42,103 bases of DNA from a virus, in IMG/VR virus record IMGVR_UViG_3300048835_000287, positions 1-42,103 of that record. One strand, given 5' to 3'. Below the pieces are notes generated by a model. It saw only the letters and a list, made by a program, of their open reading frames with translations. It searched no databases and was not told where the DNA came from. Position numbers and translations under genes: made by a program. This document shows, piece after piece, positions 8,301 to 18,577 of the stretch; positions within the stretch are counted from its first letter, which is position 1, and each line of letters opens with the position of its first letter.

Positions 8301-9701
8301 CTAAAAGACGACGACCCAAAGGGCGTTGGTGTTGTCTGGCCGCGCCTCGGCGCCGCCTGACCAATCGGTTGCGAAGGGGTGGCCGTGATCGCCGACGTAG
8401 GACGTGGCTTCGGTGCTCTGGCCGCTGTAGACGGACTTGCCGCTGCCACCGGCTGCGGTGCCCGGTGTCCCTGTCCGTGTGAAGGTATGGTTGTGCCCGC
8501 CGGTGGAGCCGGTCCAGCCGCTGTGCTGGTGCGCGAGGTTTTGGCTGCCTTGCAGCGTGCCCGCTGCCCGGCCGGCGTCGACACCGGCGCCGTCGTCCAG
8601 GCCACGCACGAACCGACCGCGCCAGTCCGGCAGGGTAAAGGTGGTCGATCCGTCGCCCGGCCCGTACTGCGCCGCCGTCTTGACGCCCTGGCTGGCTGCG
8701 ACCATGCCGCTCGCCGCAGCGGCAGCAAAAAGCGCAGCATAGGTCGTTCGCGAGAGGGCTGCGCCGTTAAGTTTCAGGCGGCCGGGAGGGGCCGTGGTGC
8801 CGAGATAGAGCTCGACGATGCCCGGTTGAGGCAGGCGATCGGCGATGCCGAGGTTGACGACCGCCGTTGGCTTGCTGGCCAGAAACTGCAGGTTGTCGGA
8901 ATTATTCATGTCGCCGGTGCCGGCCCCGGGCGCGCCGGGCGGCATGTAGACCTCGATCCTTCCAGCGCCAAGGTCGGCGGCAATGGTCGTCGCGATATGC
9001 GCGATCTTGGTATGGTACTGGGTGTTGTTCACTCCGTAGAGGAACACGTGGCCGATGCTGTAGAGCACGCCCGTCGCCCAGTTGCCCTTGAACTGGACGA
9101 CGCCGGCCTGCGCAGCTTGGGCGGCCAACTTGGCGGCATTGGCATCAGCGGCGGCGATCGTGGCCGTTTGCGCGGCCGCGACGGCCGCGGCGCCATTGGC
9201 CTGCGCGTCCTCGATCGCGGTGGCCGTCGGGCCCGCGACGGGTTGGCCGTCCTCGAACATCACGACGCGGCCGTTGACCGGCGTAAACGGATTGAGCGGC
9301 GCGCTGGTGCTGCGCAGCGTGCGGCCGAGCGTCACCTCGATCGCCTTGGTCACCTCGGCCCGCTCCTGGGCGATCATGGTCAGGCGATCGAGCTGGCGCT
9401 CGAGGGACCGCTCGCGCGCGCCTTGGGTCGCGCCCCAGCCCTGCTCGAGCGCGGTGGCCCTGGTGATGGTCAGGGTCCAGCCCATGTATCCCGCGGCCGT
9501 CGGAGCCGAGAGGGTGAGGTTGCCAGAGACAAGGCTCTCCTCGGGCGACACGGTGAAGTTGCCCGGGGCCAGCTCCACCACGTTGTCACCTTGGGACACG
9601 GTCGCGACGATCGAGCCCTCGGTGTAGGGATGCGGGATCGCGAACGGCCCGGTGCCGGCGATCGTGTAGGGCGGGGCTGGCTCGAATGCGTCGATGGTCA
9701 T
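8301..9701 (-). CDS. tail fibre with T7 gp17-like N-terminus and tail-collar domain
   Basis: A 466-residue protein. The first 150 residues resemble the T7-type fibre attachment domain (PHPYTEGSIVATVSQG, then an RLTMIAQERAEV helix). An Ala-rich coiled segment at about 170-200 suggests a trimeric shaft. The C-terminus has a collar-domain signature (LPDWRGRFVRGLDDGAG) and ends in a conserved-style NALWVVVF. It should attach to the short tail and bind the host surface. The ATG overlaps the upstream stop (ATGA). Confidence 0.75.
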   Translation of the reverse strand: MTIDAFEPAPPYTIAGTGPFAIPHPYTEGSIVATVSQGDNVVELAPGNFTVSPEESLVSGNLTLSAPTAAGYMGWTLTITRATALEQGWGATQGARERSLERQLDRLTMIAQERAEVTKAIEVTLGRTLRSTSAPLNPFTPVNGRVVMFEDGQPVAGPTATAIEDAQANGAAAVAAAQTATIAAADANAAKLAAQAAQAGVVQFKGNWATGVLYSIGHVFLYGVNNTQYHTKIAHIATTIAADLGAGRIEVYMPPGAPGAGTGDMNNSDNLQFLASKPTAVVNLGIADRLPQPGIVELYLGTTAPPGRLKLNGAALSRTTYAALFAAAAASGMVAASQGVKTAAQYGPGDGSTTFTLPDWRGRFVRGLDDGAGVDAGRAAGTLQGSQNLAHQHSGWTGSTGGHNHTFTRTGTPGTAAGGSGKSVYSGQSTEATSYVGDHGHPFATDWSGGAEARPDNTNALWVVVF

Positions 9702-12196
9702 TGGCTGCCTCCGAAGGCGTTGGAAAGGTCGGGCAGGCGGATGCCGTCATTGGATCCGCGCGTGGGCAGGAAAGGCTGGGTGCCGTAGTCTCGCTCAAGC
9801 TGTTTCAGCTTGCGGCGCATGGCGGCCTCGGCCTGCGGGTCGAGGAACGCCTGCAGCTCGTCGGCCACCAGGCGCGAATAGGCGGCGCGCACCGGCCAGG
9901 CCGAGGAGAAAAACGGGGTGTTCTGCCGCACGGTGTTGGCGATGTCGCGCCCCACGGCCGTCGGCTTGCCGTTGATCGCGCTGGTCACGTTCGACGCAAC
10001 AGGGCCGATGACGTCGCCGATCGCGCCGGCCACGGGCCCGGCCAGCGTCTCGCCGATGCCCCCGCCCACGCGGCTCGTCTCGGACTGGAAGAAATCTCCG
10101 AAGATGCCGAGCCCGCCGCCCTGGAAGGTCGCGGCCAGCCAAAACTTGCCGTCCGTCATCGGCCGCGGATCGTTGCCCTTGGCGAGCTCTTTCAGCTGGA
10201 TCGCAAGCGCACCCAGGACCAGAAGCATGGCGGACATCTGCGCGGCATACTTCGCCTTCGCGACCGGGGTGGGCAGGTTCATAAACCGCCGGTACTGGCC
10301 CAGCATGAGCGACATGGTGAAGCTCTTGTAGGCGGTCGAGGAGCGCAGGAGCTCGCCAGAGAAGCTGCCAGCCGGGGCGGTGCCCTGCAGGAGCGCGCGG
10401 CCCTCGAGGCTGGCCGTAGGTACGGCAAACTCGAGCTGCTCCTGCATGGCCATCTGCAGGCGCATGGCCAGGCCCTCGGCCTCGACGCGGGGCAGGGCAC
10501 GCTGCGTTTCCAGCCAATAGAACGGCGATATGAAATTCGCCCCGCCGGGCGCTTGGAAGTGGGTCGAGGGATCGCGCAGGAGATCCCAGTCGGCCGCTGT
10601 GATGCCGCGCGCTTGGAACAGCGAGCGCAGGGGCGCGTCGATCTGCGCGAAGGGCCGGCCAGCGTTGTCCGCCATGAAGCCCGCGAACTCCATCTGGAAC
10701 GCGATCTTGCGCATGTCGGTGATGAACGAGAGGCCGGTCGCCCGAAGGGTGAAGCCGGCCATCCGCTCGGGGATCCCGGTGCCGAACATTTGGCCGAAGA
10801 ACCGGGCCGAGCCGCCGCCGGCATCCGCCAGGGTCTGCGCAACATAGCCCATGCGCGCGGCCGTCTCGCGGGTGGCATGGCTCGCGGTCAGCTTCACCGA
10901 TCGGGCGAGCACGTTGCTGGCCGACATGCCCATGGTCTGCGCCGCCATGGTGATGGTGGCCACGTCCGTGACCGATGACAGCACGGCGCTGCCCAGCTGG
11001 ATCGACGTCAGAACCGCCCGGGTGCCGCCGAAGAACCGGGCCACGGCCACGCGCTCGGCGCGGTTGGCGGTGCCGTCCTGGTGCGCCAGCATCGCCTTGG
11101 CGACGGCCGCCTGCGTGTTGACACGGGCCTCGAGCTTGGGATCGCTCAGCGCGGCCGCGCGTTTCCGGCCAACCTGCTCGGCATAGGTCAGCCCGGCGCG
11201 CGGGTTTGGCCCCAGGACGCGCATGAGGGCCGCATCGCGGGCCATGCCGTGCAGGCCGTTCATCATGGCCGAGAAGGGGTCGGCCGTGCCGAACTGGGCG
11301 TTATAGTCCAGCCAGTCGGATCCGCTCTTGAAGTGCATGACGCGGTGCTCGCCGCGCTGGTTGTAGAGCGCCTTGCCGCCAAAGCTCAGGGACGGGTCGC
11401 GATCATCCCAGCCGCCCGAAACGATGCCGTCATAGACATCTTTCAGGAACCGCTGCGTCGCACTGCGCGGCGGTACCTGGCCGGGGGCCGCGCTGAACGG
11501 CTTGCCGGTAGAGAGATCAGGGATCCTATCCCAGGCGAGGCGCGTCTCGATCGCCTGCGCCCAGGCGTCGAAGCCGGCGCGGCGCAGCTGGCCCGCGTCA
11601 TGGGCATGGGGCACGCCATAGTCGGCCAAGTTGCCGATGTCGGCGCCCAGGCTGTTCAGGGTGCGGCGCATCCGCTGTTGCTGGGCCCGCACGGCCTTGG
11701 CTAGCGTGGCGGCCGAGGCGCTGCCCGTCGCCTCGCCGTGCAGCTCGCGCACCAGGTCGCGCAGGAGCGCCTTGTTGCGGCTCGAGCCGGTGACGTTCAA
11801 GCCAACCTGCTCGAGCACCTGGCCCAGCCCGGCGTTGATCGACGCCTCGTAAGCCTCGGTCAGCGACTGGACGCTTTCGCCCTTGAAGCCGCTGCCTTCC
11901 GAGTAGGCCATGAGGTTGCGGATAGCGAGCGCAGGATCTGGCGAGGTTTCGACCAGGTTCTGGATCCGGCGCATCGCCTGCAGCTGGTTCACCACCTTGT
12001 GGTAGCGTGACCGTTTCGCCTGGGCGGTTGCCTGTTTCAGATCCTTGGCGGCCAGAGCGGCCGCCTGGCCACGCGGCATGATCGTCTGGTACCGCGCAAA
12101 GAGCTGGTCGAAGGCTTTCTTCGCAGCGATGCCGCGGTTGCGGTCGATCTCTCCGAAGTCCACCCCACGCGCCAGGCAGTCGGCCATGCTTGTCAT
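9698..12196 (-). CDS. large internal (ejected) virion protein
   Basis: An 832-residue protein, third in a row of large proteins between the nozzle and the fibre, matching the position of the T7 internal core proteins gp14-gp16. The N-terminal region is helical and Gln/Arg-rich. The C-terminal half has hydrophobic, glycine-rich segments (AQMSAMLLVLGALAIQL and a GGLGIFGDFF stretch) that could insert into the host membrane during DNA ejection. The ATG at 12196 overlaps the upstream stop (ATGA) and is chosen over a start 10 codons earlier. No enzymatic motif was seen. Confidence 0.65.
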   Translation of the reverse strand: MTSMADCLARGVDFGEIDRNRGIAAKKAFDQLFARYQTIMPRGQAAALAAKDLKQATAQAKRSRYHKVVNQLQAMRRIQNLVETSPDPALAIRNLMAYSEGSGFKGESVQSLTEAYEASINAGLGQVLEQVGLNVTGSSRNKALLRDLVRELHGEATGSASAATLAKAVRAQQQRMRRTLNSLGADIGNLADYGVPHAHDAGQLRRAGFDAWAQAIETRLAWDRIPDLSTGKPFSAAPGQVPPRSATQRFLKDVYDGIVSGGWDDRDPSLSFGGKALYNQRGEHRVMHFKSGSDWLDYNAQFGTADPFSAMMNGLHGMARDAALMRVLGPNPRAGLTYAEQVGRKRAAALSDPKLEARVNTQAAVAKAMLAHQDGTANRAERVAVARFFGGTRAVLTSIQLGSAVLSSVTDVATITMAAQTMGMSASNVLARSVKLTASHATRETAARMGYVAQTLADAGGGSARFFGQMFGTGIPERMAGFTLRATGLSFITDMRKIAFQMEFAGFMADNAGRPFAQIDAPLRSLFQARGITAADWDLLRDPSTHFQAPGGANFISPFYWLETQRALPRVEAEGLAMRLQMAMQEQLEFAVPTASLEGRALLQGTAPAGSFSGELLRSSTAYKSFTMSLMLGQYRRFMNLPTPVAKAKYAAQMSAMLLVLGALAIQLKELAKGNDPRPMTDGKFWLAATFQGGGLGIFGDFFQSETSRVGGGIGETLAGPVAGAIGDVIGPVASNVTSAINGKPTAVGRDIANTVRQNTPFFSSAWPVRAAYSRLVADELQAFLDPQAEAAMRRKLKQLERDYGTQPFLPTRGSNDGIRLPDLSNAFGGSQ

Positions 12197-15100
12197 GCCG
12201 CCACCCCCGTCGCTTCGATCGCGCACGCCTGCACGAAGGCGTCAAATTGTGCGTCCTGGTCGAGATCGTCCAGGAGCTCGGCCGCGGTGCGGGTGGTGCC
12301 GTCGGGAAGCTCGACCTCGAGATCTCCGAACGCCTGGCGCAGATCCGCGGTATTGACTTCGCCAGGCGCGGCCTCCATGTTAGAAGTGTCCCCACGAGAA
12401 GGAGGGACAATCTCCATGACATTTGACAGCTTTGTATCTTGGGACTTCCGCCCTGCGGTGCTGTTCCGGAAACCTTCCGGCGCGTTCGTGGCTCTGGCCA
12501 TGCTCGAGCCGGGCTCCGATTGGGTATCGGTCGACGCCCTCGATGTCGTCCATACCGCTTCGGTGTTCGGATCCGAGGATGCGTTTCGGGGGGCTTTCGA
12601 GCGCAGCTGGGGTGCGATCGACATTCCGTCGGCCGAGAAGGCGACGGAACTGAGCACGTCCCGGTCGGCCGCCGCGTAAAGCGCGAGCTCGCCTTCAAAG
12701 AGCGCGATCGCCTGCGGATCCTCGGGATCGAGGCCGCGACGCTGCGTATAGGACGCGGTCCCTTTCTTCTTCGCGTCGAACATGCCCCGGGTCCAGATCT
12801 GGACCTCGCTCAGCATCCCGTCGGCGTGCCGCACGATCAGCTTGCGATCGACATATCCCTCGCGCTTTCGCGTCCAGCCCTCATCGACCAGGTCGAACTC
12901 TTCGGCCAGCTGCGCGACCAGCTGCTCGGCCTCCTCGAGATCCGTCACGATGAAGCCGCCGCGCGAAACGTCGGTCAGCTGGCGCGGGCTGGCATAGCTC
13001 TTGCGGGCGAGCTTTTCCTCGGTTGTAGCCCGCTCTTTCAGCCCGGGATCCTTGAACGTGATGCCGAGCTCGCGGCCGATGCGATTGCCGGCCTCGCTCA
13101 GCTTGGCCTGGGCATCGGCCGCCCGGGTGTAGAGCGTGTCGAGATCATCGAAGGGCTGGGCCATCGCCAGGCGCAGAACGAAGGTGACCGGATCCGCCTC
13201 GGCCAGGATCTCGGCCGCCGCGGGCGCTGCCGTCGCGCGGATCTCGGCCGCGATCTCCTGGTCGGCCGCCTCAGCCTCGAGCGATTGCGCGCCTTCCTCG
13301 TAACCCTCGTCCACCAGGTCGGCGCGCAGCTCGGGTGCCGCGCCCCGCGGCCGGCCGATGTCGTCGGGCAGATCGCCGAAGATCTTCGGGTCGATCGCGC
13401 GCAGCACGTCGGCCGGGCCCGGCCCGTCGAACATGCCGCCGGTGGCGCCGGCCTTGCGTGCATCTTCCGCGTAGCGTGCCAGGAAGCCCGCGACCTCGTC
13501 GGCCGGGGCCGCCTTGCCATCGCGCCAGAACTTGCGCACCAGGGCGGCGGTGAGCGGTGCCACGGGGCCCTCGAGGAGATCGACCTCCTCGAGGAGCTCG
13601 GACACGGCCCGGGCGATGCTCAGCCCTTCGCGGCTCGACAGCTCGCGGGCGGCGCCGATCAGGCGCATCGCGTCCAGGACATAGGGCGAGACGTCCATTT
13701 CAGGGCGCACCAGGCCGGCCTCGATGTCGGCCCGCAACGCGGCCCAGCTGGGCGCGGCGCGATCGAGCGCCTCCATGAGCGATTTAAGGGGGCCCGCGTC
13801 CGTCTCGGTGAAGCGCGCGAGGATCTCGGGATCCGGCCAGGCGCGGGCAAAAAGCGCCTCGCGCAGCTGCCGCTGGCCCTGGTTGTTCAGCACGCCGCCC
13901 TCGCCGAACATCGAATTGCGCGCCGATCGAGGAAGGCCGGAAAGGGCAGCCTTCACGAACTCGCCATTCGACGCCGCGGTGAGCGGCTGGGTCGGATCGA
14001 GGCGCATGAGGACCGGCGATGTCATCGCCCGGCTCGAGGCGCGGGCGACTTCGGTGGGCGTCATCTGCGCAACGCCGCTGTCTTGGGCTTCGACCACGAA
14101 CCGGCGCAGCTCGTCATCTGAGAGGGCGCTGCGTCGGCGGGCCACAAGAACGGGACGCTCGACGCCCTCGGGGATCGCGAAGCCGGCCGCCTCGATCTGG
14201 CTGCGGTAGGCGCCGCTGCGATCGGGGAACTGGTCATAGGCCCGCGCGATCGCCGCCACGCGGCCGTTGCCGCTTTCGATCATGCCGTCGGGCCCGACGA
14301 TCGGCGCGCCGCGATCGGCCGTCGGGGCCGGCATGAGGCGCATGGGATCGAGCTGGGCGGCCGTGTCGGAAATCCAGGCATCGGATGCCTGGCGGCTACG
14401 ATCGCGCGGCTGGAAGTCACCGCTCGCCGCGCGCAGCTGGGAAATGTCGAGCACCTCGTATTCGACGTCGATCCGGAAATCCTCGCCGGCCGTCACCTGG
14501 CCCTCGCCGGTGTAGCCCCGGGTCGTCGGCGAATAGGGGGCAGCGTCGCCAGAGATCGCGACGCCGTCGTGCTTCGGCACGGCGCCGCCCTCGTACTGGC
14601 GCTGCAGCGAGACGGCGTAACCGATGCGCCGCTCGAGGTGCGGGATCCCCGGGCGCTCGTAATATTTCGACACGAACGCGGCCGCCTCGCGCGCGTCCTT
14701 CGCCTGGCTGATCCTGGACCAGGCGCCGGCCTCGCTGGTTTTCAGCTCGTGATCGACAAAGGCGATCTGCGTGTCGAGATCGCTCGGGCTTTTGCCACGC
14801 TTCTGCGCGAACGCCTCGAGCGCCCGGCGGCGATCGTTCCACTGCGCGATGCCGTAGGCCGCGCCGCCGTCTCCCACCGCGTCGGTGCGCAGACTGGGCC
14901 CGCTCTCCACCATGAAGTTACCGACCAGGCCAGAGGCGATATGCGGCTCGTAGCCCAGCTCGAGGAACTTTCCGAACACATAGCCCGCCCGGTTCGTGCG
15001 GGGCGAGGCGTTGCCGGCCGGGGTGTAATCGAACTTGATCGGGCCGGCGGGCGACTCGACCTCGTTCGGCGGGGGCGCGATCACCTCTTGCACGGTCGGA

Positions 15101-15879
15101 TCGCCGCGCAGCTGCGCCTCGGCCGTGTCGACCGCAACCTCTGCGTCGATCTCGTCCATGTCGGCCGGCTTGGCGTCCAGGACGCCGCGGCGCCGGGCGG
15201 CGATCATGCCGTAGCCTTTCAGGATGCCCACCACGCCGGTGGCAAAGGTACCGCCCAGCAAGGCCCCCATGCCGATGCGGCCGAGGACGTCGGGCTTGGG
15301 CAGATCGAGATCCTCGGCCACCTGGAATTCGCGCGGCAGCACGGCCGCCTCGCCGATCGCGCCAAGAGCGGCCTCGCTCACGATCGTCCGGAGTGCGCCG
15401 CTCGAAACCCCGAAGGGCAGGAGCATCAAGCTGGTCTGGTCCGTCATCGCCCGCGCGGATCCGCCCAGGAACTCGGCAAAGCCGCCCCCCGGCTGGTCGA
15501 GGATCGACTGCGCCTCCTCGAGCTCGGCCTTGCGCTCGCCGTCGATCGCCAGGTCGAACTGCTCGCGCGAGAGGGGCAGGGTGCCATACTTGGTCGGGTT
15601 GGTCGGTACCTCGCGAGAAACCTCGTCAAGGACCATGTCCTCAAAATCAATCCAATTGTTCTCGTAATCCCACCGGCGGTTCTGGATGCGCATCTTCGCT
15701 TCCGAGCCGAGCATCCCGTACATTTCGGTGGCGAGCCCGCGGCGCTTGTCCTGGGTATAATTCCAGGCGTCGGTGCGGATCGTCTCGGCTTCCCAGGCCG
15801 CACCCATGACATCCCAGCTGCTCACGTCCATGTCGGGCGGGGCGGGCAGGTTTTCCTCGGGCAGGGGCAGATTCGTCAC
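12193..15879 (-). CDS. multidomain internal virion protein: lysozyme + ParB/DdrB-like + RelA/SpoT-like
   Basis: A 1228-residue protein with a GTG start overlapping the upstream stop. Residues about 295-430 form a phage tail-lysozyme domain (Glu325 in NFMVESG; AAYGIAQWN). About 470-690 resemble the DdrB-like ParB domain of polyvalent proteins (GPDGMIESGNGRVAAIARAY; RRSALSDDELRRFV). About 905-1035 resemble a RelA/SpoT synthetase fold (LARKSYASPRQLTDVSRG, KREGYV, LSEVQIWT). The position fits a T7 gp16-like ejected protein that opens the peptidoglycan. The other domains may act in the new host, which is inference. Residues about 1068-1155 are Ser/Thr/Asn-rich and lie antisense to a plus-strand gene. 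Confidence 0.75.
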   Translation of the reverse strand: MTNLPLPEENLPAPPDMDVSSWDVMGAAWEAETIRTDAWNYTQDKRRGLATEMYGMLGSEAKMRIQNRRWDYENNWIDFEDMVLDEVSREVPTNPTKYGTLPLSREQFDLAIDGERKAELEEAQSILDQPGGGFAEFLGGSARAMTDQTSLMLLPFGVSSGALRTIVSEAALGAIGEAAVLPREFQVAEDLDLPKPDVLGRIGMGALLGGTFATGVVGILKGYGMIAARRRGVLDAKPADMDEIDAEVAVDTAEAQLRGDPTVQEVIAPPPNEVESPAGPIKFDYTPAGNASPRTNRAGYVFGKFLELGYEPHIASGLVGNFMVESGPSLRTDAVGDGGAAYGIAQWNDRRRALEAFAQKRGKSPSDLDTQIAFVDHELKTSEAGAWSRISQAKDAREAAAFVSKYYERPGIPHLERRIGYAVSLQRQYEGGAVPKHDGVAISGDAAPYSPTTRGYTGEGQVTAGEDFRIDVEYEVLDISQLRAASGDFQPRDRSRQASDAWISDTAAQLDPMRLMPAPTADRGAPIVGPDGMIESGNGRVAAIARAYDQFPDRSGAYRSQIEAAGFAIPEGVERPVLVARRRSALSDDELRRFVVEAQDSGVAQMTPTEVARASSRAMTSPVLMRLDPTQPLTAASNGEFVKAALSGLPRSARNSMFGEGGVLNNQGQRQLREALFARAWPDPEILARFTETDAGPLKSLMEALDRAAPSWAALRADIEAGLVRPEMDVSPYVLDAMRLIGAARELSSREGLSIARAVSELLEEVDLLEGPVAPLTAALVRKFWRDGKAAPADEVAGFLARYAEDARKAGATGGMFDGPGPADVLRAIDPKIFGDLPDDIGRPRGAAPELRADLVDEGYEEGAQSLEAEAADQEIAAEIRATAAPAAAEILAEADPVTFVLRLAMAQPFDDLDTLYTRAADAQAKLSEAGNRIGRELGITFKDPGLKERATTEEKLARKSYASPRQLTDVSRGGFIVTDLEEAEQLVAQLAEEFDLVDEGWTRKREGYVDRKLIVRHADGMLSEVQIWTRGMFDAKKKGTASYTQRRGLDPEDPQAIALFEGELALYAAADRDVLSSVAFSADGMSIAPQLRSKAPRNASSDPNTEAVWTTSRASTDTQSEPGSSMARATNAPEGFRNSTAGRKSQDTKLSNVMEIVPPSRGDTSNMEAAPGEVNTADLRQAFGDLEVELPDGTTRTAAELLDDLDQDAQFDAFVQACAIEATGVAA
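12353..12381 (+). promoter_or_regulatory. candidate sigma70-type promoter for the nested plus-strand gene
   Basis: TTGACT (12353-12358), a 17-base spacer and CATGTT (12376-12381) fit a -35/-10 pair reading rightward. It lies 34 bases before the ATG of the antisense-nested gene. The -35 is 5 of 6; the -10 keeps only the key A and final T. It sits inside the coding sequence of the opposite-strand virion gene, so chance is possible. Confidence 0.35.
12416..12679 (+). CDS. 87-residue protein encoded antisense inside the virion gene
   Basis: An ATG with a strong Shine-Dalgarno (AGAAGGAGGG ending 10 bases upstream) opens an 87-codon frame with ordinary protein composition: WDFRPAVLFRKPSGAFVALAM, then DALDVVHTASVFGSEDAFRGAF. 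By hand count G+C is about 62 percent at first and 54 percent at second codon positions, as in a real gene. The antisense virion frame would show the reverse order, and its translation here is Ser/Thr/Asn-rich and unlike the rest of that protein. The family is not recognised. It could be expressed from the prophage while the virion genes are silent. Confidence 0.6.
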   Translation: MTFDSFVSWDFRPAVLFRKPSGAFVALAMLEPGSDWVSVDALDVVHTASVFGSEDAFRGAFERSWGAIDIPSAEKATELSTSRSAAA

Positions 15880-18011
15880 TTGCCAGCCTCCCGGATGAGA
15901 TCGGAGAGACGGAAGCGGTAGGCGCGGCCCTTGGCGTCGTCGGCCCGGCGCACGGTGTAGGTGCGGCCTGCGACGGTGTAGCGGAACTCGTACACGTCGG
16001 CTTTCTCACTCACGCGGTGCAGCTGCAGCGAGGGAAACAAATCGCGCGGCGTCTTGCCCAGGTCGGGCTTGGCGCCCTCGAGGCCGGCGGCCGCGAAGGC
16101 CCGCATGGGATCGGGCGGCGTCTCCATGGCGCTGCTATCCCAGCCGCCGATCGAGGGATCCCACCGTTGCCCGTCCAGATGGCGCTGCAGGTTCTCGAGG
16201 CCGGCCTCAACCTCGATCGCCGGCACGCCCGCGGGCAAGCTCACATAGGCGTCGCCGATCGGCTGGACGCCCCCGATCGTGAGCTGGCCGTTGGCATCGG
16301 GTACCGCGCCGGTGACGCGCTGGATCGAGCTCGTGAACAGGTCGAGCGCGGCGGGATCGTCCATGAAGGCGGGCGCGGTGTCGCCCACGTCGGTCTGCGA
16401 GGCGCCGGCGCCGTCGGCATAGAGCGCGGTCGCGGCCGCCATGATCTCGGCCTGCAGGGCCGGGTTGCCGTCGAAGGCGCCGCCGGTGACTTGCGACAGG
16501 ATGGATCTCTGGTTTGCCGGGCTGGGCAGGTTCACGGTGCCGAGCGCCTGGCGCTGCTGGCCGCGCAGGATCTCGGTGACAAGGGGTGCGTCACCAGTCG
16601 AGGCCAGGAGCGAGAGGGTGCGCGCGAATACAGGATCCGCCTCGAGCACCTTGGCCACGTCCTCGGCCTTCCTGGGATCGGCCGCCAGGATCGCCTTGGC
16701 CAGCGCGACCTTGGGCCCTGGCTCGGCCTTCGGGTCCAGAATCGCGCGCAGCTGCGCCTTTTCTTCGCTGTCGAGGATCGCCTGCGATTTCGTGTAACCG
16801 CCCTTGGTCGCGTAGTCATTGAAGGCGAGGCGCTTGGTCAGGCCCTGCACAAAGGCGTCGGGCGCTGCCGGGTCGAAGGCGGGCAGCTCAGGCACGGCCA
16901 TGCCAGCGTCGCGCGCCTGCTCGACAGCACCGGTATTCCAGCCCTTGGCCGCTTCCTCGCGCCAGGAGCGCAGCACCACCAGGCGTTCATTCTCCCATTC
17001 TTCTTCGATCGGCCGGGCTTCCTCGGCGGCGATCGCCGCATCAAGCTCGGCCACGGTCATCTGCTTGATGTTCGGGATCTCGCCCTGCAGCTCGTAGGCG
17101 GCCTTTGCCTTGGCCCATCCCGGCCGGGCCTGAGCCTCGGGGCTGTCCAGGAGCGTCATGTCGGCGGGCGTGCGGCCGGCGCCCAGGATGCTCGTCATCG
17201 TGGTGAGCCGCTTGTCGAGATCCGCCTCGGCCTCCTTGGCGGCCACTTCGACCGCCTTGGCTTCCTTTGCGGTGCGCTCGTCGATCGAGCGCTGAGCGAG
17301 GATGCGCAGCTTGGTGACGTCCTCGCCCAGGTCGTTGTAGGCGCCGGCCTCGGCCGCGGCCAGGAAGCCCTCGGGATCTGCCTCGATCTGTGACGCTGCG
17401 CGCTGGCTAAAGAGCCGGGTCCGCAGCGCCTTTTTCTCGGTATAGACCGCGGCCGCGTCCATGCCATTGGCGGCCGCCCGGGCGTCGATGTCGGCCTCGC
17501 CCTGGGCGATCAGGGCCTGCAGGGTTTCATCGTCGGTCGTGGCGCCCTGCACAACGATCTCATCTTGCAGCGCCATGCTCGTCGCGGTGCGCTGCGACTG
17601 GCGAAGCCCGATCGCCTTGTAGCCCAGGGCATCAGCGTGGCGATCGGCCAGGCCGGTCACGGCCATGTCGAACCGGTCGGCGATGCGCTTGTCGACGCGG
17701 GGCAGGCCGTTGTCGTCGGCACCGGTGAGGTACTTCTGTTTCAGCTCGGCCACGCGCTGCGGCCAGAGGGTGTCGATCGCGTCCGGATCTCCGAGCTGCT
17801 CAAACTCCTGACGCAGCTGGCCGAGATCTCGCGTGACGTCCAGTTGCAGGCGCTGCGCCTGGCGATCGAGCCGGTCCCGCTCCATCGCGGTGCCGATCTG
17901 CATGGCGGCGCTGCCGAACTCGGCGACGGCCGAGCCTGTGTTCCGTGCGGCAACGGGCACGTTGGCCGAGCGGCCCGCGATCACCCCAGCCTTTGGAACG
18001 GTCAGCGTCAT
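15876..18011 (-). CDS. internal virion protein (gp15-like position)
   Basis: A 711-residue, largely helical protein rich in Ala, Glu, Arg and Gln, with long coiled-coil-like stretches (about 30-100 and 230-350) and a small beta-rich C-terminus (VYEFRYTVAGRTYTVRR). Length, composition and place between the small glycine-rich internal protein and the lysozyme-bearing protein match the T7 gp15 slot. It probably forms part of the ejected core. The ATG shares one base with the upstream stop. No enzymatic motif is visible. Confidence 0.65.
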   Translation of the reverse strand: MTLTVPKAGVIAGRSANVPVAARNTGSAVAEFGSAAMQIGTAMERDRLDRQAQRLQLDVTRDLGQLRQEFEQLGDPDAIDTLWPQRVAELKQKYLTGADDNGLPRVDKRIADRFDMAVTGLADRHADALGYKAIGLRQSQRTATSMALQDEIVVQGATTDDETLQALIAQGEADIDARAAANGMDAAAVYTEKKALRTRLFSQRAASQIEADPEGFLAAAEAGAYNDLGEDVTKLRILAQRSIDERTAKEAKAVEVAAKEAEADLDKRLTTMTSILGAGRTPADMTLLDSPEAQARPGWAKAKAAYELQGEIPNIKQMTVAELDAAIAAEEARPIEEEWENERLVVLRSWREEAAKGWNTGAVEQARDAGMAVPELPAFDPAAPDAFVQGLTKRLAFNDYATKGGYTKSQAILDSEEKAQLRAILDPKAEPGPKVALAKAILAADPRKAEDVAKVLEADPVFARTLSLLASTGDAPLVTEILRGQQRQALGTVNLPSPANQRSILSQVTGGAFDGNPALQAEIMAAATALYADGAGASQTDVGDTAPAFMDDPAALDLFTSSIQRVTGAVPDANGQLTIGGVQPIGDAYVSLPAGVPAIEVEAGLENLQRHLDGQRWDPSIGGWDSSAMETPPDPMRAFAAAGLEGAKPDLGKTPRDLFPSLQLHRVSEKADVYEFRYTVAGRTYTVRRADDAKGRAYRFRLSDLIREAGK

Positions 18012-18577
18012 CAGCCGAGCACCCTCTTGTCGGTAATGCCCGGCCAGAGCTCGGGCGCGGCCGTCAGGAGCGAGCCCGCCGCGCTGAACCGGCTCTTGAT
18101 AAACGCATCCTCAGCCTGGGCTTTCACGACGCGCTGCGCGCCGGTCAGCTCGCGGCGCTTCGCCTCGCCGTCAGATCTGATCGCCTGGCTTTCAAAGCTC
18201 ATTTCCTGCGCGGCAGTGCGGCCGAGAAGCATGGCGGTGGGGCTGTCGAGGCTGATCCCGCGCTTGGCCAGCTCGGCGCGCTGTTGCGCCGTCGCCGCGC
18301 GCCATTCCTGGCGCTTGCGCATGTCGGCCGTGGCGGTGAGCTCGGCCTCGGTCTGCGCCTTGGCCTGCAGCTCGGCGATCTGCTCGTTGCCGGCGTCGAC
18401 CGCCATGTTCCCCTGGCTGAGCGATCCCGCGATCGAGGCGACGGTGCCCACTACCTGCAGCAAACCGCCGAAGGTCAGGCCGCCCGCGGCCGCGCCGGTT
18501 GCAGCTGCGGCCGTGGCGCCGGCGGCCGTCGCGCCGCCGATGCCGGCTAGAGGGGCGAGGAGTGCCGGGAAACACAT
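18011..18577 (-). CDS. small internal virion protein (gp14-like)
   Basis: A 188-residue protein with a long Ala/Gly-rich hydrophobic N-terminus (about residues 5-60) that could insert into membranes, then a charged helical region (IAELQAKAQTEAEL and on). This is the layout of T7 gp14-type proteins, which build the outer-membrane part of the ejection channel. Its position right after the nozzle gene supports this. Start and stop codons overlap both neighbours (TAATG, TGATG). Confidence 0.65.
   Translation of the reverse strand: MCFPALLAPLAGIGGATAAGATAAAATGAAAGGLTFGGLLQVVGTVASIAGSLSQGNMAVDAGNEQIAELQAKAQTEAELTATADMRKRQEWRAATAQQRAELAKRGISLDSPTAMLLGRTAAQEMSFESQAIRSDGEAKRRELTGAQRVVKAQAEDAFIKSRFSAAGSLLTAAPELWPGITDKRVLG

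Follow-up and report, generated by a model that had tools for sequence, protein, structure and literature searches.

A RelA/SpoT-type domain and a gene nested on the opposite strand form a probable toxin-immunity cassette in a phage polyvalent protein

We use profile searches, structure prediction and resampling of aligned sequences to study one late gene of a short-tailed phage and a second gene that lies within it on the opposite strand. The window, by which we mean the whole 42,103-base IMG/VR virus record IMGVR_UViG_3300048835_000287, encodes a 1228-residue polyvalent protein (the carrier) with a RelA/SpoT-type domain, here called SYNTH, and behind this domain a nested gene for an 87-residue protein (Table 1). 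We find that the nested gene is a genuine overlapping gene under protein-level selection. Together with the predicted fold of the SYNTH domain, its conserved catalytic residues and the linkage of the two genes across relatives, the sequences point to a reading that we consider probable: the SYNTH domain and the nested gene would form a mobile toxin-immunity cassette inside an epsilon15 gp16-like, ejection-slot virion protein. A first-pass annotation of this DNA, made from the letters alone, had delimited the carrier gene correctly and proposed an ejected protein with lysozyme, ParB/DdrB-like and RelA/SpoT-like domains, the last of which could alter nucleotide signalling or tRNA in the new host. 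It overlooked the gene on the plus strand, and that gene shifts the reading from a host-modulating domain to a toxin with a linked immunity-like gene; the earlier interpretation is, overall, partly supported.

We begin with the nested gene. Carrier residues 1067-1155, behind the SYNTH domain, are conserved although Ser, Thr and Ala abound in them, and the opposite strand of this stretch encodes the compact 87-residue protein. The same open reading frame (ORF) occupies the same place in relatives and is found at all 14 distinct SYNTH loci. Long antisense ORFs are frequent in the window, however, and the frame relation here is the very one in which mirroring is strongest: position 1 of a codon in one frame faces position 2 in the other and wobble faces wobble, so that conservation can mirror across strands and the antisense ORF could be an artefact, a conserved sense tail reflected into the facing frame. 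Codon-position counts alone are uninformative in a wobble-facing frame, and resampling nulls were used instead, in which the sense protein is held fixed and only the sense-synonymous third bases are varied; a pure mirror effect predicts an antisense similarity equal to this null. In a sense-built alignment of five phages, antisense similarity exceeds the null with z = 6.5, compared with values between -1.6 and 1.3 across 12 control stretches taken from the carrier gene, and over 12 nested loci the antisense z is 12.7 and the sense z 2.0. The reverse test gives a sense z of 1.8 in the nested stretch versus 4.7-8.0 in control stretches ahead of it. Third bases shared by descent lower the null somewhat, a bias that the control stretches carry as well, and a first resampling with an antisense-built alignment had the same outcome as the sense-built one. 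Because the antisense z is high and the sense z low, we conclude that the antisense protein is the chief target of selection in this stretch and that the sense frame is kept open. Behind the nested gene (carrier residues 1157-1228) the sense z is 3.4 and the antisense z 0.2, and this return of sense selection indicates that the carrier is really read through.

Signals for translation are also in place. An ATG with a Shine-Dalgarno sequence is present in 22 of the 22 loci listed, although the start was picked among nearby candidates by Shine-Dalgarno score, which makes this count somewhat favourable; for the first seven loci, where starts were fixed beforehand from a shared motif, the chance product for such sequences given the sense protein is about 6e-11. 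Leave-one-out profiles run on six-frame translations recover the nested ORF in seven of eight rows, with E from 8e-18 to 1e-29. Two loci carry the small protein outside the fully nested arrangement. At L048 the carrier stops behind the SYNTH domain and the convergent small gene overlaps its open frame by 46 of 225 nucleotides (nt), with the other 179 beyond the sense gene and the sequence still conserved; at L058 (5881-6462) one same-strand ORF, behind a SYNTH ORF whose N-terminal half is missing, holds two tandem copies of the small protein, a possible orphan immunity gene. Tyr, Cys, His and Gln are near-absent from the nested copies (0.1-0.2% each), whereas Tyr and Gln do occur in the proteins of L048 and L058. 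The scarcity of Tyr, His and Gln is the expected footprint of dual coding, since antisense Tyr and His/Gln codons place TAN or TGN, possible stops, in the sense frame. With resampling, control stretches, Shine-Dalgarno sequences and these two loci all opposed to it, we regard the artefact as already contradicted and give it next to no credence.

The AlphaFold model of the nested protein (predicted local distance difference test, pLDDT, 84; predicted template-modelling score, pTM, 0.75) has four strands and three helices. The protein matches no family in Pfam or PHROGs and has no sequence match in the PDB, Tis1 included, and the best Z of its model with VIA is 3.5, a value that does not establish a new fold. 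A terminator-like hairpin (window 12741-12759, plus strand) stands 62 bases past the nested gene on its own strand, within chance expectation (shuffle mean 0.8).

Now we consider the SYNTH domain. The Pfam RelA_SpoT family (PF04607) matches carrier residues 948-1043 under its cut-off (E 0.29; 0.013 for the isolated domain), so standard annotation would overlook it. Searches with the single domain sequence against the PDB and phage records returned next to nothing, and Tas1 was reached only by a profile from IMG/VR relatives: scans of viral contigs yielded relatives with 34-55% identity within the domain, and a profile of this subfamily only has Tas1 as its top PDB match (E 1.1e-14). The AlphaFold model built from 14 sequences (pLDDT 89.9, pTM 0.85) aligns with VIA-align to Bacillus subtilis SAS1 (Z 15.6; 163 aligned residues, 2.9 A), Tas1 (Z 15.1; 162 aligned, 3.2 A), the exported synthetase SaEAS (Z 14.5) and CapRel (Z 12.9), against a polymerase-type background near 7. 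Judged from this model, the domain is real and of predicted RelA/SpoT-type nucleotidyltransferase fold, as the first-pass annotation had proposed with structure prediction as its check. Viral proteins of the same fold in BFVD are named 'DdrB-like domain-containing' or 'RelA/SpoT', and tblastn with the domains of the window and of locus L018 found no member of the subfamily in an isolated-phage collection.

Six core residues (K948, K956, D970, R973, E1025 and Q1027) are invariant in 14 of 14 loci. By alignment, the basic motif, the metal-binding Asp and the donor-site Arg, Glu and Gln match those described for FaRel2, Apk1 and SaEAS (PMC11782079; PMC12691689). The landmarks picked out earlier from the letters largely hold (D970-x-x-R973, G1008-Y1009, E1025-x-Q1027-x-x-T), but the canonical lysine pair consists of K948 and K956 and not of the proposed K-S (K960-S961). 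The acceptor side is where the domain departs from its relatives: (p)ppApp enzymes carry G-x-N and (p)ppGpp enzymes S-x-H (PMC12226406), whereas all 14 loci have D1011-R-K1013, and Y1009 is replaced by F in three of them. The domain thus has neither the G-x-N of the (p)ppApp-type toxic small alarmone synthetases (toxSAS; Tas1/Apk) nor the S-x-H of (p)ppGpp synthetases; with D-R-K in place of G-x-N we do not file it as an Apk, and since D-R-K is without exception we predict no acceptor. In a 317-residue protein of a rumen bacterium (L006:5323-6276), which has a long low-complexity N-terminus, the SYNTH domain is of the G-x-N (ppApp) type.

How tightly are the two genes associated? At every locus where this SYNTH subfamily was found, a small gene lies directly behind the domain on the opposite strand (14 distinct loci), with L058 as an additional, same-strand case; the strict linkage of small gene and toxin domain expected of toxin-immunity pairs is therefore found at 14 of 14 distinct loci and at L058. 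The carriers are diverse. Lysozyme and ParB domains occur together in the window, L014 and L015; ParB is combined with other N-terminal parts in L016, L032/L045, L038 and L046; the L013 carrier has no recognised ParB, and those of L052 and L053 are short. ART and acetyltransferase domains are found in the L056 carrier, a methyltransferase-like domain in that of L048, and the L018 carrier is a giant helicase-type polyvalent protein. The latter (L018:475-12567) exceeds 4000 residues and has helicase domains, an intein-like LAGLIDADG insertion, an HExxH-like motif (IRHEEIHALRD) and SYNTH with a more divergent antisense gene. Integrases in the L013 and L018 records suggest that at least some such phages are temperate. 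The searches of plasmids turned up a single Photobacterium locus, where an exported synthetase-like ORF is present but the antisense profile has no match, and they yielded no antisense match otherwise; this megaplasmid locus (L037:5788-7635) has two tandem SYNTH-like ORFs with apparent signal peptides, as in exported alarmone synthetases.

The 87-residue protein is most likely the immunity protein of a SYNTH toxin. We propose this because of its strict linkage to the domain, its duplication beside a truncated SYNTH ORF at L058 and the partners of known toxic synthetases: toxSAS enzymes are paired with dedicated antitoxins or immunity proteins (PMC11782079, PMC12226406). The nested gene could instead be real with another role, as a regulator, as a chaperone that packs SYNTH for the head, or as an independent anti-host protein that travels along, and the fact that the protein matches no known antitoxin or immunity fold speaks for such roles; linkage to a single SYNTH subfamily across unrelated carriers, and the tandem copy at L058, fit immunity best, and we hold these other roles to be unlikely, though they are the most serious competitor. 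Less probable still is that SYNTH is catalytically dead, a nucleotide-binding or scaffolding part of an ejection protein. The altered acceptor motif, the phenylalanine at 1009 and the sub-threshold Pfam match would agree with a dead domain, but the donor-site and metal residues are invariant at 34-55% identity, and the slot proteins of SI2 and of Alcaligenes phage Piluca seem to be without the domain, so it is not structurally needed. To the same small degree we credit a conventional alarmone synthetase that would adjust host physiology on infection, through (p)ppGpp or (p)ppApp, without antagonism: the fold is shared with SAS1 and RelP, but in sequence the domain is nearest to Tas1 and the exported SaEAS, and a linked immunity-like gene suits a toxin.

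Several observations weigh against a toxin-immunity pair and have to be set beside this evidence. The D-R-K acceptor site is unlike known synthetases and puts the substrate, and even activity, in question. Ejection of the carrier is suggested by its slot only. The 87-residue protein has neither a sequence nor a structure match among known antitoxins, the divergent L018 copy is missed by a profile built without it, and a scan of the window for the sigma-70 consensus found no promoter-like site for the nested gene.

If the SYNTH domain and the nested gene are indeed toxin and immunity, the sequence of events would be as follows. The lysozyme would open the cell wall, and the carrier, or its C-terminal part, would enter the host together with the DNA. 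There SYNTH would move pyrophosphate from ATP onto an acceptor, a nucleotide or a tRNA 3' end, and this transfer could stop growth or reprogram the cell, with rivals inside the cell hit as well. The small protein of about 87 residues would neutralise SYNTH in the producing cell, in a lysogen, or in a newly infected cell once expressed; we infer that lysogens in which the small gene is expressed from its own strand would be safe from related phages. The nesting probably arose when a cassette of toxin domain and convergent immunity gene, as still seen at L048, entered the carrier gene in front of a C-terminal part that the carrier requires, after which the carrier frame would have to remain open across the immunity gene.

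The genomic setting of the carrier bears on its entry into the host. The late genes of the window are read from the minus strand: terminase, head-tail connector (PF12236), capsid (PF19821), tail tubular proteins, phrog_418, an unmatched 711-residue protein, the carrier, phrog_684 and a tail collar/fibre protein. The tail-lysozyme and DdrB-like ParB domains that had been proposed from the letters are both borne out, with Pfam scores of 103.5 bits (cut-off 28.2) and 115 bits (cut-off 27.6), and the lysozyme region is swapped for other sequence in L013, L016 and L032. Several effector domains in one candidate virion-associated carrier are what is expected of a polyvalent protein. The assignment to a T7 gp16 slot was looser: the flanks are phrog_418 and phrog_684, and no T7-type gp16 family is among the Pfam and PHROGs matches of the carrier and its neighbours. 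In phage Piluca, the best annotated counterpart, a lysozyme-ParB relative annotated as epsilon15 gp16-like is followed by an epsilon15 gp17-like pilot protein; we therefore take the slot to be of epsilon15 type and T7 gp16 to be more of an analogy, and on these annotations the carrier resembles epsilon15 gp16 more than T7 gp16. The slot and the lysozyme domain suggest that the carrier probably enters the host with the DNA.

Table 1. Features of the carrier gene, the nested gene and their neighbours in the window
Feature	Position	Strand	Basis or remark
Carrier, polyvalent, epsilon15 gp16-like (predicted ejection) protein, 1228 residues, GTG start	12193..15879	-	ORF, domains, slot
Phage tail lysozyme domain, carrier residues 297-425	14605..14991	-	PF18013 (Phage_lysozyme2), E 1.4e-29
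DdrB-like ParB domain, carrier residues 467-582	14134..14481	-	PF18763 (ddrB-ParB), E 2.8e-33
SYNTH domain, RelA/SpoT-type (toxSAS-like), carrier residues about 893-1080	12640..13203	-	predicted fold, invariant residues
Nested gene, 87 residues, ATG to stop, probable immunity protein	12416..12679	+	entirely within the carrier gene, past the SYNTH domain
Shine-Dalgarno AAGGAGG, 10 nt before the nested-gene ATG	12399..12405	+	
Carrier C-terminus, residues 1181-1228, sense conservation back	12196..12339	-	resampling
Next gene, phrog_684, epsilon15 gp17 pilot-like	9698..12226	-	E 7.8e-144
Upstream gene, 711 residues, no family match (Pfam, PHROGs)	15876..18011	-	
phrog_418 internal virion protein	18011..18577	-	E 3.5e-13

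Among the closest known systems is Tas1/Apk1, the (p)ppApp synthetase of the Pseudomonas aeruginosa type VI secretion system (PDB 6OX6), which shares the fold and the donor-site R, E and Q and is likewise paired with a small immunity protein. It differs in delivery by that secretion system, in its acceptor motif and in the absence of a sequence match between Tis1 and the nested protein. The tRNA pyrophosphokinase toxSAS of the FaRel2/CapRel kind, which are marked by tRNA-binding N-terminal helices and a small acceptor patch, are represented by the CapRel alignment given above. In pore-forming colicins, the immunity gene is read from the opposite strand and adjoins the toxin gene; the strand arrangement is the same here, but our small gene is wholly inside rather than beside. 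Apk2 MuF toxins of temperate phages (PMC12226406) are also phage-associated, have SYNTH at the C-terminus and are linked to immunity genes, but they have a MuF carrier and a ppApp motif in place of a lysozyme/ParB protein of the ejection slot, and we found no report of an antisense-nested immunity gene for them. The gp34 family of Bordetella phage PHB04 has a related RelA/SpoT-like domain (hhalign probability 97%, E 3.5e-11) and, in the relatives inspected, a small downstream gene, which unlike ours is on the same strand and is accompanied by an HD_4 hydrolase gene; homology of the 87-residue protein to that small gene is not supported (hhalign probability 0.4%). PHB04-type loci (L005/L007, L008, L010, L021, L022, L023) place the RelA/SpoT-like protein beside the portal gene; a small conserved gene for about 70 residues (consensus MxYIENEGALFRGPARG) comes next, and PHB04 and L010 also have an HD-type hydrolase. 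This looks like another synthetase with a small partner and an alarmone hydrolase. A Sulfitobacter podovirus paper that seemed relevant does not deal with the SYNTH domain studied here.

That polyvalent phage proteins mix such domains, as the first-pass annotation stated, is on record: DdrB-ParB is fused to lysozyme in Acinetobacter prophages, and RelA/SpoT domains occur with DdrB-ParB in Helicobacter prophages (Iyer et al. 2017, PMC5512222). The main text of that paper makes no mention of an immunity protein, antisense, opposite strand or overlapping. Our literature search, which covered few subscription journals, found no immunity or antitoxin protein described as encoded antisense wholly within its toxin gene. 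Domain mixing being already known, what is apparently new is the genetic layout and the small protein family. We lean slightly towards this being the first toxin-immunity system that would have its immunity protein encoded in full within the toxin-bearing gene but on the other strand. The two would persist as a dual-coding cassette that passes between ejected and polyvalent phage proteins, with a synthetase domain whose acceptor site is unlike those of known (p)ppGpp and (p)ppApp enzymes.

Annotation programs usually reject genes with long antisense overlaps, and immunity genes with such a layout would therefore go unseen. Here, comparative genomics supports the nested gene in at least 12 nested loci, which suggests a route to the missing immunity genes of seemingly orphan phage toxins. 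The D-R-K acceptor site may point to a new substrate. The pair, which lends itself to simple co-expression, also sharpens the question of how phages use alarmone-synthetase domains delivered at infection.
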